Below, one piece after another: positions 3,411 to 48,194 of a stretch of DNA of 64,000 nucleotides; positions within the stretch are counted from its first letter, which is position 1; every line of letters begins with the position of its first letter. The stretch spans positions 62,001-126,000 of the forward strand of contig JAGVWE010000004.1 in the NCBI GenBank assembly GCA_018304425.1, written 5' to 3'. The notes under the pieces are model-generated. The model was not told the DNA's origin and did no database searches. It saw only the letters and a program-made list of their open reading frames with translations. Position numbers and translations under genes: made by a program. The stretch is from Candidatus Iainarchaeum sp. (GTDB taxonomy: Archaea; Iainarchaeota; Iainarchaeia; Iainarchaeales; UBA10219).

Positions 3411-3657
3411 AGTGGCCAGCCCCCGTGGGGGCGATTCTCACACCTGACCCATTCTAGGCCCCGACCAATTTATATTCCGGCAAGCTTCACGGTTCTCCGG
3501 CCCAACCGCCACAGCCGGTTGACGTCTGTGGACTAGTCCCGTCTTCGACGGGACGAGGCCTTCCGAAGGCCCCATAGGGCTATAGGCACTCCAGGCGTTT
3601 TCCCTTATAAAAGCCCTTGGAATTCGCTTGCCGAACTTCGATTCCCTTCGGGGAAAG
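3411..3657. other. Intergenic region between divergent valS and secreted-protein gene
   Basis: No convincing ORF lies here. It holds a GC hairpin (GCCCCCGTGGGGGC near 3420), a double hairpin at 3536-3571, a TATA-like TTATAAAAG near 3605 that could drive an untranslated plus-strand RNA, and a small stem with a TTCG loop (TTCCCTTCGGGGAA near 3641-3654). I found no tRNA or known ncRNA. Confidence 0.5.
3536..3571 (+). repeat. Double hairpin element (copy 1)
   Basis: The first stem is GTCCCGTC / GACGGGAC (8 bp) with loop TTC. Then GA, then a second stem GGCCTTC / GAAGGCC. The same plan of a 3-base-loop hairpin, then GAGGCC, then a second hairpin occurs at 11132-11173. The function is unknown. Confidence 0.5.
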
Positions 3658-29823: not shown

Positions 29824-29955
<132 letters not shown>

Positions 29956-29989
29956 AACTGCCGAAGCGTCAGTTGACACCGCATACGTC

Positions 29990-30020
29990 GTCCCGTTTCG
30001 CCTGAGAGGCTCAACGGGAC
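29990..30020 (-). promoter_or_regulatory. Tandem-GA hairpin before tRNA-Leu (copy 3)
   Basis: The minus strand reads GUCCCGUU-GA-GCC-UCUCA-GGC-GA-AACGGGAC. The outer stem is 8 bp, the internal loop is GA/GA, and the inner stem is 3-4 bp. It lies 34 bases before tRNA-Leu and is followed by GACGUAUGCG, close to the ACGUACGCG that follows copies 1 and 2. Confidence 0.65.
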
Positions 30021-30091
30021 ATAAATATGCCGTCAACCGTTCCCGCCGCATTACCATTGCATGAAAGGGCTTTAATTGCTTGCCATTCCTC
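30021..30091 (-). promoter_or_regulatory. Spacer between rpoD and tRNA-Leu with TATA-like boxes
   Basis: It contains minus GGCATATTTAT (30021-30031) and CAATTAAAGCC (near 30068-30078). Either could start a transcript through the hairpin and tRNA. No ORF is present. Confidence 0.4.
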
Positions 30092-44762: not shown

Positions 44763-45485
44763 TTACTTCTTCTTCCTGCCCGTCCTGCTCGAGGCAATGG
44801 CCCCGACCTTTCTCCCCGGAGGCGCGTGCCTGGACGTGGACTTCGACTTTCCAGCGTGGTGCTGGCTGCCGCCGAACGGGTGGTCCAAGGGGTTCATCGC
44901 AACGCCCCTCACCAAAGGATACTTGTGGTGCGAGGCATGCATCTTGTGGAACATGGAACCAGCCTTCAGCAACGGCTTTTCAACCCTTCCCCCGCCAGCC
45001 GACAAGCCAATCGTGGCACGGCACAGGGGATTCAACTGCGTGGTCTTGCCGGACGGCAGCTTCACGTAAACATACTTCTTGTCCTTCGTCACAATCAAGC
45101 CATACAAGCCCGAGCTCTTGACCAGCCGGCCGCCATCCCCTGGATTCAACTCGATGTTGAACACCGGGCAGCCTTCCACGATTTCCCCCAACGGCAACAC
45201 GTTCCCAACGTCCAACGCGGCCTTCTTCCCATACTGGAGGTTTTGCCCCACCGAAATGCCTTCCGGCGCGACCTGGAAGCCCCTCCGGTTGTCTTCAAAC
45301 AACAATTCCGCGACGATGCCGGTTCGGCCGGCATCCGTGACCAGGTCCATTACCTCGGCCCGGAACACGCCTTCCTTCTGCGGCTCGTTATAGTCCACGT
45401 ACTTCACGTCGGCAACGCCCCGGCCCGAAGCCCGGTACGTGGGGCTGCCCTTTCCAGCCCGCTGCGTTCGAGTCCTTTTACCCAT
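44763..45485 (-). CDS. rpl2: Ribosomal protein L2
   Basis: 240 residues of uL2: MGKRTRTQRAGKGSPTYRAS, VEGCPVFNIELNPGDGGRLV, and the peptidyl-transferase-proximal MNPLDHPFGGSQHHAGKSKS. It has a repeat leader (copy 1 of a hairpin element) between rpl23 and its ATG. Confidence 0.97.
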   Translation of the reverse strand: MGKRTRTQRAGKGSPTYRASGRGVADVKYVDYNEPQKEGVFRAEVMDLVTDAGRTGIVAELLFEDNRRGFQVAPEGISVGQNLQYGKKAALDVGNVLPLGEIVEGCPVFNIELNPGDGGRLVKSSGLYGLIVTKDKKYVYVKLPSGKTTQLNPLCRATIGLSAGGGRVEKPLLKAGSMFHKMHASHHKYPLVRGVAMNPLDHPFGGSQHHAGKSKSTSRHAPPGRKVGAIASSRTGRKKK

Positions 45486-45518
45486 CAGCGGTCACGCCCC
45501 CCTGGGAAGCGCGTACGT
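45486..45518 (-). repeat. 33-base leader repeat before rpl2, copy 1
   Basis: This block is identical, base for base, with 46916-46948 before rpl4. It follows the hairpin and contains a G-run usable as a ribosome-binding site. Its last base touches the rpl2 ATG. Confidence 0.85.
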
Positions 45519-45551
45519 GCCCTGTTTCGCCCTGCGGGGGCTCAACAGGGC
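45519..45551 (-). promoter_or_regulatory. Tandem-GA hairpin before rpl2 (copy 1)
   Basis: The minus strand reads GCCCUGUU-GA-GCCC...GGGC-GA-AACAGGGC. The 8-bp outer stem differs from the rpl4 copy (GUCCCAUC/GAUGGGAC), with pairing kept at every changed position. It sits between rpl23 and rpl2. Confidence 0.7.
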
Positions 45552-45592
45552 GGTAGTAATTCCCGCCTTCCGGTCGATTTGTTCCATAAACA

Positions 45593-46084
45593 TTACAATA
45601 CACCCAGTTTCGTCGCCAATTCATCCGCCTTAAACGCCTTGTTGATTTTCACGAACGCCTTCTTCCGGGCCTTCATGTCCCGGCAAACGTTCACGCGGTC
45701 AACCTTGACATTGTACATGGTTTCAACCGCCTTCCGCACATCCGCCTTCGTGGCCTTCCGGTTCACGACGAACACGATCTTGTTCTCGCCGTCAATCATG
45801 TTCACGGCCTTCTCGGAAACCAGGGGATACTCCAGCACCTCATACACCTTCAAGGCACCGGTCTGCTCCAGTTGCCGCTCGTCGAACTTGACCGCGCTCT
45901 CCTTGCCCATTGCCTTTCCGGCATCCTTTTTTCCGGCGTGCGCCCCTTCCTTGGCAGCGTGGGCCTGCTGCGCGTGCTTGGGGTGCACCTTGCCCGCCAT
46001 GCGTTCCCGGGATGCGGTAACCTTGCGGTTGGCCTTGGAGGGCTTCCTGCCCATTGACTTTCCCTTGGGGTTCGGTCGTTCCAT
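45593..46084 (-). CDS. rpl23: Ribosomal protein L23 with N-terminal extension
   Basis: 163 residues. The uL23 core is the last 90 (EYPLVSEKAVNMIDGENKIV, TMYNVKVDRVNVCRDMKARK). A basic, His/Ala/Lys-rich tail of about 70 residues precedes it. uL23 lies at the exit tunnel and docks SRP and chaperones. Confidence 0.93.
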   Translation of the reverse strand: MERPNPKGKSMGRKPSKANRKVTASRERMAGKVHPKHAQQAHAAKEGAHAGKKDAGKAMGKESAVKFDERQLEQTGALKVYEVLEYPLVSEKAVNMIDGENKIVFVVNRKATKADVRKAVETMYNVKVDRVNVCRDMKARKKAFVKINKAFKADELATKLGVL

Positions 46085-46085
46085 G

Positions 46086-46916
46086 TCAGTTCACCAGGTA
46101 CTTGGCCAATGCATTCAAGGCCCCTTCCGTCCACAACGTCAACCGGCCCGGCAGGGTTCCAGGCGCCAGCAATTCCGCGTTGAGGTTCCGCACCTCAACG
46201 ACATCCACGCCCTCGAGGTTCCTCGCCGCCTTGTAAACCTTGGCCGGCTTTTCCGTGACAATCAACAAGCTCTTGGCCCGCTTGTACTTCCTTCCCCGCG
46301 TCTTCCCGCGGCCCGGGCGCACCTTTTTGCGGGCCTTGGCCTTTTCAACGTCGCCATACACGTTCAAGGCAGTCAACACGGCCGCCACTTCCCTGGCCTT
46401 CACGAGCTCCTCGAACCGGGCTTCCACGACCAGGGGAAGGCGCTTGGCCTCGAACCGGTGTCCCCGGGCCCTCACCAACGCCACATCCGCGGTCGCGGCA
46501 ATCGCGGCCGCCACGGCCTTCCTCCGCTCCTTGTCATTGATTCTTTCCACGATGACGCGGTCCTTGTTCAACCGGTGCACCCTGGGACCGCCCACGGCGT
46601 GCGGCACTCCCGCCACCCTTCCCTGCAACAAATACCTTCTGTTCCTGAGCCTGGGCAGCCTCGCGTGCTCCACGTTAATCGTGCGGTACATGGCCGGCTT
46701 TTGCCTGGAGCCAATGTATTGCGCGGTCATGTCCCTTCCCGCCCTCGTGCTCGGGCCCTTGGGCTGGATTCTCCCGGTTTGCACGGCGATGACCGCCCGC
46801 TTGATCAAGCCCAGGTCCACTTCGGACTCGAACACCCGGGGCAACCCGATTTCGCGGAGTTTCTTGCCCTCCAAGGAAAGCACTTCCGCCTTCGTTTCAG
46901 CTTTCGCATCCACCAC
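46086..46916 (-). CDS. rpl4: Ribosomal protein L4
   Basis: About 276 residues of uL4: KAEVLSLEGKKLREIGLPRV, QPKGPSTRAGRDMTAQYIGS and GGPRVHRLNKDRV. The frame is open to ATG 46955, but the first 39 bases of that version lie inside a leader repeat also found before rpl2. I therefore prefer GTG 46916 or 46913, which sit at the repeat's end as the rpl2 ATG does. Confidence 0.92.
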   Translation of the reverse strand: MVDAKAETKAEVLSLEGKKLREIGLPRVFESEVDLGLIKRAVIAVQTGRIQPKGPSTRAGRDMTAQYIGSRQKPAMYRTINVEHARLPRLRNRRYLLQGRVAGVPHAVGGPRVHRLNKDRVIVERINDKERRKAVAAAIAATADVALVRARGHRFEAKRLPLVVEARFEELVKAREVAAVLTALNVYGDVEKAKARKKVRPGRGKTRGRKYKRAKSLLIVTEKPAKVYKAARNLEGVDVVEVRNLNAELLAPGTLPGRLTLWTEGALNALAKYLVN

Positions 46917-46948
46917 AGCGGTCACGCCCCCCTGGGAAGCGCGTACGT
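46916..46948 (-). repeat. 33-base leader repeat before rpl4, copy 2
   Basis: It is identical to 45486-45518 and ends at the proposed rpl4 start. Confidence 0.85.
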
Positions 46949-46981
46949 GTCCCATCTCGCCCCGAAGGGGCTCGATGGGAC
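46949..46981 (-). promoter_or_regulatory. Tandem-GA hairpin before rpl4 (copy 2)
   Basis: The minus strand reads GUCCCAUC-GA-GCCCC-UUC-GGGGC-GA-GAUGGGAC, with a C(UUCG)G apex. Upstream UACUACCG is shared with copy 1. Confidence 0.7.
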
Positions 46982-47030
46982 GGTAGTACTGCCGACGTTC
47001 CAGTTAAATTCATTCACCATAAAAATCAAC

Positions 47031-48194
47031 CTACTTCTTCTTCCCTTCCAGGCCTTCCTTGATGAGGTCGGCAGCCGACTTCTTGGCTTCCTTCTTTTCT
47101 TCTTCGACCCTCACCTTGTGCGCGGCCTTTTCCTCGAGTTCCACGACCGCGACCTTGTCATCCGCGTGGACCTTCCGCCTCTTCGGCGAAATGACTTTCA
47201 CGTTCGACAAAAAATACCGGTTGTCCGGCGTCGGCCGCGAAGCAAACCGCAGGGCCACCGCCCGCTTCTCAGGGCCCGGAATAGAGCCCCCCAACAACAG
47301 GTAATCGTTCTTGACCACGCCGTAATTCGGGAAACCCGCGGGCGGGTTCACTTCCCCGAGGTCATCGCTGATGCGCACGATGCGCTTGTTGAACTCGGTC
47401 CGGTTATGGTACCCCATCTGGCCCGCGCGCGCAACCGTCCACATGACCGTTGCAGGGTGCCAGGGACCGATGGAACCCACCACGTTCTGGGTCTTGGCCT
47501 TCGGCCGGTGGCTTTTCACGCCAAACCGCTTGACCACGCCCGTGAACCCGTGCCCAACCGTAACCGCTTTAACGTCCACGAACTGCCTTTCCTTGAACAC
47601 TTCCTGGACCGTCAACTCGTTGCCCAGCTTTTGCCCGGCATACGCGAACTGCTCGTCCAACGAACCCGAAAGCTTGACCTCGGAAACGTCCGCCACCTTC
47701 TTCCCCGACTGGGTGAGGCTCGGCTGCGAGTGCACCAGCAACCGCAGTTCATCCACCTGGGACTTGAGCTTCTCCAGGTCCGCTAGCGTCTTGTGCGCGG
47801 GCCGGTCCTTTTTCTTCTTCGACTTGCGCCGCTTGAACCAGTCTCCCACGCGTTCCCGGAAAAACTTGTCCGGCTTTTCCACGGTCGCCTCTCCAACGGT
47901 CTTCAAACCATTCACGGAATGCTTGTACGCGCGCACGCCGTACACGCGCAGGGGCGGCGCTTCGACAACCGTCAAGGGCACACTGACTTCCAAGCCGAAC
48001 GAAGTCGTCTTCGGGGCCTCGTTCCGGCCCATGCCGTGCACCATGCCGGCCTTGTACGCCAAAAAATTCAGGGGCGACGCGCCCTTGACATCAGCGGGAG
48101 CCGGAAACGAGCTAAAGCTCGGCGTCTCCTTGCGGGCGCGCACGCGCGGATAAAAGGCCTTTGACCCCGAGTGGGGCTTGTGAATTCTCACCAT
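47031..48194 (-). CDS. rpl3: Ribosomal protein L3
   Basis: 387 residues of archaeal uL3: PHSGSKAFYPRVRARKETPS, VGHGFTGVVKRFGVKSHRPK and GSIGPWHPATVMWTVARAGQ. It is the first gene of the S10/spc/alpha-type superoperon. The C-terminus has a Lys/Glu-rich helix. Confidence 0.97.
   Translation of the reverse strand: MVRIHKPHSGSKAFYPRVRARKETPSFSSFPAPADVKGASPLNFLAYKAGMVHGMGRNEAPKTTSFGLEVSVPLTVVEAPPLRVYGVRAYKHSVNGLKTVGEATVEKPDKFFRERVGDWFKRRKSKKKKDRPAHKTLADLEKLKSQVDELRLLVHSQPSLTQSGKKVADVSEVKLSGSLDEQFAYAGQKLGNELTVQEVFKERQFVDVKAVTVGHGFTGVVKRFGVKSHRPKAKTQNVVGSIGPWHPATVMWTVARAGQMGYHNRTEFNKRIVRISDDLGEVNPPAGFPNYGVVKNDYLLLGGSIPGPEKRAVALRFASRPTPDNRYFLSNVKVISPKRRKVHADDKVAVVELEEKAAHKVRVEEEKKEAKKSAADLIKEGLEGKKK

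Follow-up and report, generated by a model that had tools for sequence, protein, structure and literature searches.

Hairpin blocks before rpl2 and rpl4 in Candidatus Iainarchaeum sp. are probably copies of a small palindromic mobile element of Diapherotrites

The blocks that precede rpl2 and rpl4 in Candidatus Iainarchaeum sp. are probably copies of a small, non-autonomous, palindromic mobile element that has spread in Diapherotrites. We put this reading at roughly two in three. The blocks are located in a 64-kb window (the whole stretch of DNA that was analyzed), for which a first-pass annotation had proposed a leader dedicated to ribosomal proteins L2 and L4. The element family is spread through Diapherotrites and is apparently undescribed; searches of open-access papers on archaeal ribosomal leaders and on pseudoknotted or tRNA-linked small archaeal mobile elements returned no description of it. 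To our knowledge, small mobile elements have been little studied in DPANN archaea. Genomes and element copies are denoted below by working numbers (G and L, respectively), G000 being the genome that contains the window.

The paired blocks and further copies in the window

The genes rpl3 (47031..48194, PF00297), rpl4 (46086..46916, PF00573), rpl23 (45593..46084, PF00276) and rpl2 (44763..45485, PF03947) are all encoded on the minus strand, as are the four element copies in the window. The copy before rpl2 (45486..45558; 45.2 bits, E 2.6e-8 with covariance model R2, see below) consists of a 3-bp helix (UAC/GUA), a UACC internal loop, the hairpin P1 (45551-45519) and a 33-nt 3' part (45518-45486). 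Its P1 reads GCCCTGTT-GA-GCCC-CCGCA-GGGC-GA-AACAGGGC. In the copy before rpl4 (46916..46988; 48.0 bits, E 6e-9), P1 (46981-46949) reads GTCCCATC-GA-GCCCC-TTC-GGGGC-GA-GATGGGAC and is followed by the corresponding 33 nt (46948-46916). TACTACC precedes the hairpin in both blocks. The 3' part, ACGTACGCGCTTCCCAGGGGGGCGTGACCGCTG, is identical in the two, which bears out the first-pass annotation, and the hairpin that it had described (8-bp outer stem, GA/GA loop, inner stem) is present in both. It had also claimed that stem differences are compensated; this is the case, as four of the eight outer-stem pairs differ and pairing is kept in all. The blocks fold better than dinucleotide shuffles, with z = -3.1 (rpl2) and -4.1 (rpl4). 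This pattern of constant flanks and a changed P1 can be explained by copy replacement or by selection in place.

The 3' part of these two copies is modified, and a single longer hairpin (CGCGCUUCC/GGGGGGCGU) has the lowest predicted energy there. According to this predicted fold, the hairpin would mask the G-rich ribosome-binding region. The annotated end of the blocks at a start codon is correct for rpl2 (ATG, 45485), while the rpl4 block ends at GTG GTG. The start codon of rpl4 is probably the GTG at 46916 or that at 46913; its reading frame stays open upstream to an ATG at 46955, within the element copy. A small open frame is predicted across each copy on the minus strand. One (45492..45593, MFMEQIDRKAGITTALLSPRRAKQGTYALPRGA) starts at an ATG overlapping the rpl23 stop codon (TAATG) and ends 6 nt before rpl2; the other (46922..47020, MVNEFNWNVGSTTVPSSPFGARWDTYALPRGA) ends just 5' of the rpl4 start. 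Flanking duplications are not significant at either copy. Rfam has no family that reaches a gathering cut-off at the blocks; the searches matched only tRNA.

Five copies had been counted in the window; the significant copies number four. The third (29958..30027; 53.8 bits) stops 2 nt short of a tRNA gene (29955-29824). The fourth (3503..3559; 50.4 bits) has a P1 devoid of a tip and a pseudoknot formed by a CACAG linker and a CTGTG loop. The tRNA gene directly behind the third copy (29824-29955) has an intron; it is found by Rfam but missed by ARAGORN with default settings.

Architecture of the element

The block noticed at first is real but incomplete, because the conserved unit extends beyond it, to a helix of 3 bp and another hairpin. 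A unit has about 57-75 nt and occurs singly or as an inverted pair. Read from 5' to 3', it starts with three bases whose pairing partners, of the GTA type, follow P1; next come an internal loop of 4 nt (UACC-like or UUAU-like), hairpin P1 with 8 bp, a short linker, and hairpin P2 with 6 bp. P1 is closed either by a GAA triloop or by the GA/GA loop with its inner stem. The latter, although real in both ribosomal blocks, is thus optional, and many relatives have only the GAA loop.

In the alignment, 94% of the cells are paired, and two-sided changes are seen at 13 of the 17 pairs. The covariation score is 0.56, compared to 0.21 for shuffled data, and structures that are slid or shuffled perform far more poorly. 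In addition, the linker pairs with the P2 loop, forming an H-type pseudoknot that also covaries. Selection on structure, as suggested by the first-pass annotation, is thereby confirmed. The longest Watson-Crick run between linker and P2 loop has a mean of 3.56, compared to 2.63 +/- 0.085 when the loops are redealt, and none of 1000 shuffles reaches 3.56, although this overstates the significance somewhat because the copies are mutually related. The variety of linker/loop pair types (among them TGCG/CGCA, TGGC/GCCA, GGAT/ATCC, AGGT/ACCT, TTTCG/CGAAA, CACAG/CTGTG and GAGCG/CGCTC) is hard to explain without a pseudoknot. Among the element pairs, G-U (102) outnumbers A-C (36), which favors the sense single strand as the folding strand; in P1 alone, the two are about equal. 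Two sense frames are open in 115-120 of 145 copies, compared to about 70 expected from shuffles. As a sign of a conserved peptide, this excess is weak because the copies are related and rich in motifs.

Several known RNA structures were considered and rejected. A kink-turn has a bulge of three nucleotides next to sheared GA pairs in tandem. The GA/GA loop is a symmetric 2x2 loop and is missing in many copies, so that a kink-turn or L7Ae target does not apply. Bases reminiscent of a hammerhead core (CUGUUGA...GAAAC) vary together with their stem partners. A guide pocket as in H/ACA RNAs was not seen.

Distribution

Related hairpins were initially detected, by a DNA search of the genome itself and a hairpin scan, in the vicinity of tRNA genes and in the spaces that separate other genes. 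A first covariance model from seven copies detected about 22 strong copies in this 1.48-Mb genome, plus copies in relatives. The second model, R2, was built from 24 copies from several genomes. With R2, there are about 28 matches in G000, 69 in G059, 55 in G033, 25 in G026 and 14 in G013; each of 11 further genomes has one or two. No match came from the other 59 genomes of the order or from 12 that belong to the class but not to the order. The search of related genomes proposed in the first-pass annotation thus recovered copies in Diapherotrites relatives. Their number, and their frequent location at tRNA genes and at non-ribosomal operon junctions, do not support a leader dedicated to L2 and L4. 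The element is patchy between close relatives. When 84,980 species genomes were scanned with a tight pattern, five loci matched, three of them in Candidatus Diapherotrites records; one of the five is on the complete chromosome of archaeon GW2011_AR10 (1,241,428 bp), and the other hosts are also archaea.

Other repeats occur close to the copies. The sequence TTTTTTATTGTAATCCAAAATTATATGCA precedes many copies and follows some (L126, L127 and L128 in G059; L056, L061, L070 and L071 in G033). The copies with TTTTTTATTGTAATCCAAAATTATATGCA have a TATA-like stretch about 25 nt upstream of the element and a T-run 3' of P2; they are possibly free-standing small RNA genes. A second repeated hairpin (GCCTTTTTGCC/GGCAAAAAGGC) is found near tRNA genes and element copies in G000 (L004, L006, L028). 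In GW2011_AR10, copies (L110-L116) are often accompanied by a second module, GTGCCATTGAAGATGGCAC followed by TTGTAAACGGAG, and base pairing is possible between the end of this module and the P2 arm of the element proper.

Placement at tRNA genes, RNase P RNA and coding genes

Among 148 distinct copies, 22 end within 4 nt of the end of a tRNA gene, and the P2 end faces the tRNA in all 22, which include a few orthologous pairs from sister species, so that the independent events are somewhat fewer. Eleven are at 5' ends, all on the same strand as the tRNA, and eleven at 3' ends, all on the opposite strand. Another 11 copies are inside intron-bearing tRNA genes, 10 of them antisense. In nine of these ten, no more than 2 nt separate the P2 end from the predicted 5' splice site; in the tenth, the distance is 6 nt. 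The only sense copy in an intron (L037) seems, on visual inspection, to lie directly against the 3' exon, at its 5' end. A degenerate tRNA duplicate, suspected by eye beside tRNA-linked copies, was supported (p<0.05) at only 3 of the 22 sites.

The RNase P RNA of G033 and G059 carries an inverted pair of units in the loop of one helix (L201, 626-745, and L123, 974-1086), which lengthens this RNA to 425-477 nt. The same helix is a short hairpin devoid of the element in the sister species G026, and also in G000 and G013. Copies also occur within coding genes. In G000, one (L020, 1485-1543) is read in frame in the linker of a dihydrolipoamide acyltransferase, and in G033, another (L065) is in frame within the N-terminus of S9. 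Others are located at operon junctions between genes.

Signs of movement and of selection in place

The RNase P RNA helix and the rpl23-rpl2 junction provide filled and empty sites. At several copies next to protein-coding genes, flanking duplications of 27-70 nt were detected; 27 of 112 non-tRNA sites have p<0.05, where about 6 are expected. In G072, a 53-nt duplication reaches exactly to both borders of the element (L090). Others have 46 nt (L040 in G034), 47 nt (L049/L068, an orthologous pair in G026 and G033) or about 50 nt (L064), and a long one is found at L012 in the genome under study. The duplicated stretch is typically the end of one gene plus the start of the next, so that both genes remain intact. 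Most tRNA sites lack a clear flanking duplication. The family is thus dispersed and multicopy, is too short to encode a transposase, and has filled and empty sites as well as target duplications (unusually long, 27-70 nt) at several sites, as is characteristic of miniature inverted-repeat transposable elements (MITEs) and other small palindromic mobile elements.

Two orthologous sites bear on what happens after insertion. At L064/L069, both partners of three pairs have changed in a stretch of 58 nt whose flanks are 87-90% alike. This sequence comparison suggests that some copies are selected where they are located and are not mere mobile debris. At L182/L077, in the same tRNA intron of sister species, nearly all stem sequences differ between flanks that are about 90% identical, which looks like replacement by another copy.

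We infer that an enzyme or an RNA-level process recognizes the folded single strand and acts from the P2 end. Stems would be free to vary provided that pairing holds, and one copy could overwrite another. After insertion between the coupled genes of an operon, a copy would persist only if both genes can still be translated, and an open frame would often cross the element. The copies before rpl2 and rpl4 would be two of these survivors, recently related either mutually or via one source.

Neither TnpB nor a reverse transcriptase (RVT_1) was found in four element-rich f14 genomes, one of which is complete; a Y1 transposase was represented by one fragment in one of the four. A TnpB omega RNA and a retroelement with a known reverse transcriptase were thus rejected, because f14 carriers lack TnpB and RVT_1, respectively. 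An archaeal SINE-like retroelement, in which reverse transcription would start from the 3' terminus (P2) of the element RNA, is a version of the mechanism that we regard as unlikely. The 3' end of an RNA (a mature tRNA, or a 5' exon cut by the splicing enzyme) would act as primer, leaving an antisense copy behind it, and a polymerase running off the 5' end of a tRNA would jump to the 3' end of the element, leaving a sense copy in front. As no known reverse transcriptase was found, this would need an unrecognized polymerase. The strand rule fits copying from the element 3' end at RNA ends, and a rule at the DNA level, with the P2 end always towards the gene, fits the counts equally well.

Alternative explanations

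The reading closest to the first-pass annotation is that the copies, or one subgroup among them, act as a ribosomal-protein leader, in which the pseudoknot hides the ribosome-binding site and is stabilized by a ribosomal protein. In its favor are the 33 nt identical in both window copies and the 3' end CGCGGAGGTGNCCGCGTAATG, which occurs five times in the order, each time before a ribosomal gene (rpl2 and L24e in G061; rpl2, rps3 and L24e in G064; L215-L219), although the search pattern was itself derived from ribosomal copies. In these f16 leaders, the P2 loop AGGTG is a Shine-Dalgarno sequence, and three of the five have the complementary linker CACCTC. Ribosomal genes with an insert before or within them include rpl2 and rpl4 in the genome under study, rps3, rps9 and rps10 in G033, P1 in G059 and S15 in G064. 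The set refuting observation, relatives lacking the hairpin, was nevertheless made: among 29 relatives, only the f16 genomes G061 and G064 have an insert at the rpl2 locus, and the other 27 have no leader there. In nearly all relatives, the rpl23 stop codon abuts or nearly abuts the rpl2 ATG. Leaders of ribosomal protein genes in Rfam are likewise structured and upstream of ribosomal genes, but the element is neither conserved before the same gene nor confined to ribosomal genes. tRNA genes and non-ribosomal genes account for the majority of copies, and half of those abutting tRNAs are antisense. A group-wide ribosomal regulon was rejected, as a rough estimate for G000 and G033 puts the ribosomal share close to that of random gene placement. 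We therefore consider the leader reading quite improbable. The element may have some role at certain ribosomal genes, and the f16 subgroup, in which the pseudoknot loop contains the ribosome-binding site, is a candidate for domestication. Small frames through the f16 leaders end with AEVTA or AEVSA at a TAATG overlap.

The element might instead be an RNA processing signal, maintained for the host as a cut site or as a folding insulator by which tRNAs and the genes of operons are kept apart in long transcripts. Copies abut mature tRNA 5' and 3' ends and intron edges, two are located between tandem tRNA-Gly and tRNA-Val genes (L184, L203), and the compensatory change in place at L064/L069 would be expected. 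The copies on the 3' side of tRNAs are antisense, however, so that the transcript would hold the reverse complement; moreover, only a minority of tRNAs carry a copy, and occurrence is patchy among close relatives. A role as RNase P substitute was rejected, since the element-rich genomes have an RNase P RNA. We hold it to be rather improbable that processing explains the family. Still less probable is a recombination site that is read as folded single-stranded DNA by a recombinase or an HUH enzyme, as are attC sites and REP hairpins. The conserved hairpin feet, the same end always pointing towards the gene, the inverted pairs and the replacement of whole stems at L182/L077 would agree with it, but the G-U bias and the pseudoknot indicate RNA, Y1 enzymes are lacking in G013, G026 and G059, and duplications of 27-70 nt are unusual for such enzymes. 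The core sites of integron attC are RYYYAAC and GTTRRRY. These were not seen: inspected by eye, L011, L012 and L040 have AAC/GTT in P2, with surroundings that do not match the core.

Relation to known systems and significance

As a mobile element, the family resembles prokaryotic MITEs, including the archaeal ones, in being non-autonomous and multicopy, with inverted pairs and target duplications. It differs in that the duplications are not short and fixed, inverted repeats are found only in paired copies, and scans for TnpB, RVT_1 and Y1 revealed no parent transposon. REP/RAYT and IS200/IS605 hairpins share the short conserved foot and the dispersal between genes; here, most carriers lack a Y1 enzyme, and the pseudoknot and the duplications are additional differences. 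STRR repeats are inserted in a peripheral helix of cyanobacterial RNase P RNA, a parallel to the copies described above, although sequence, host and structure are unrelated as far as known. Prokaryotic MITEs, with archaeal examples, and the Rickettsia palindromic elements (RPEs), which are inserted in frame, are covered in a review (PMC10969869). Like RPEs, the present element is a small palindromic multicopy repeat that is found in frame in protein-coding genes (here, the acyltransferase and S9). RPEs are bacterial and about 150 bp long, and the likeness is one of description. They are not known to have a covarying pseudoknot or a strand rule at tRNA ends, both of which the present element has.

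Ribosomal neighbors and covariation are insufficient for calling a ribosomal leader, as this case cautions. The covarying pseudoknot, the entry into tRNA introns and RNase P RNA, and the perfect strand rule at the ends of processed RNAs make a specific mechanism testable. The element is also a natural case of essential RNA genes and coupled ribosomal operons that accommodate a structured insertion.
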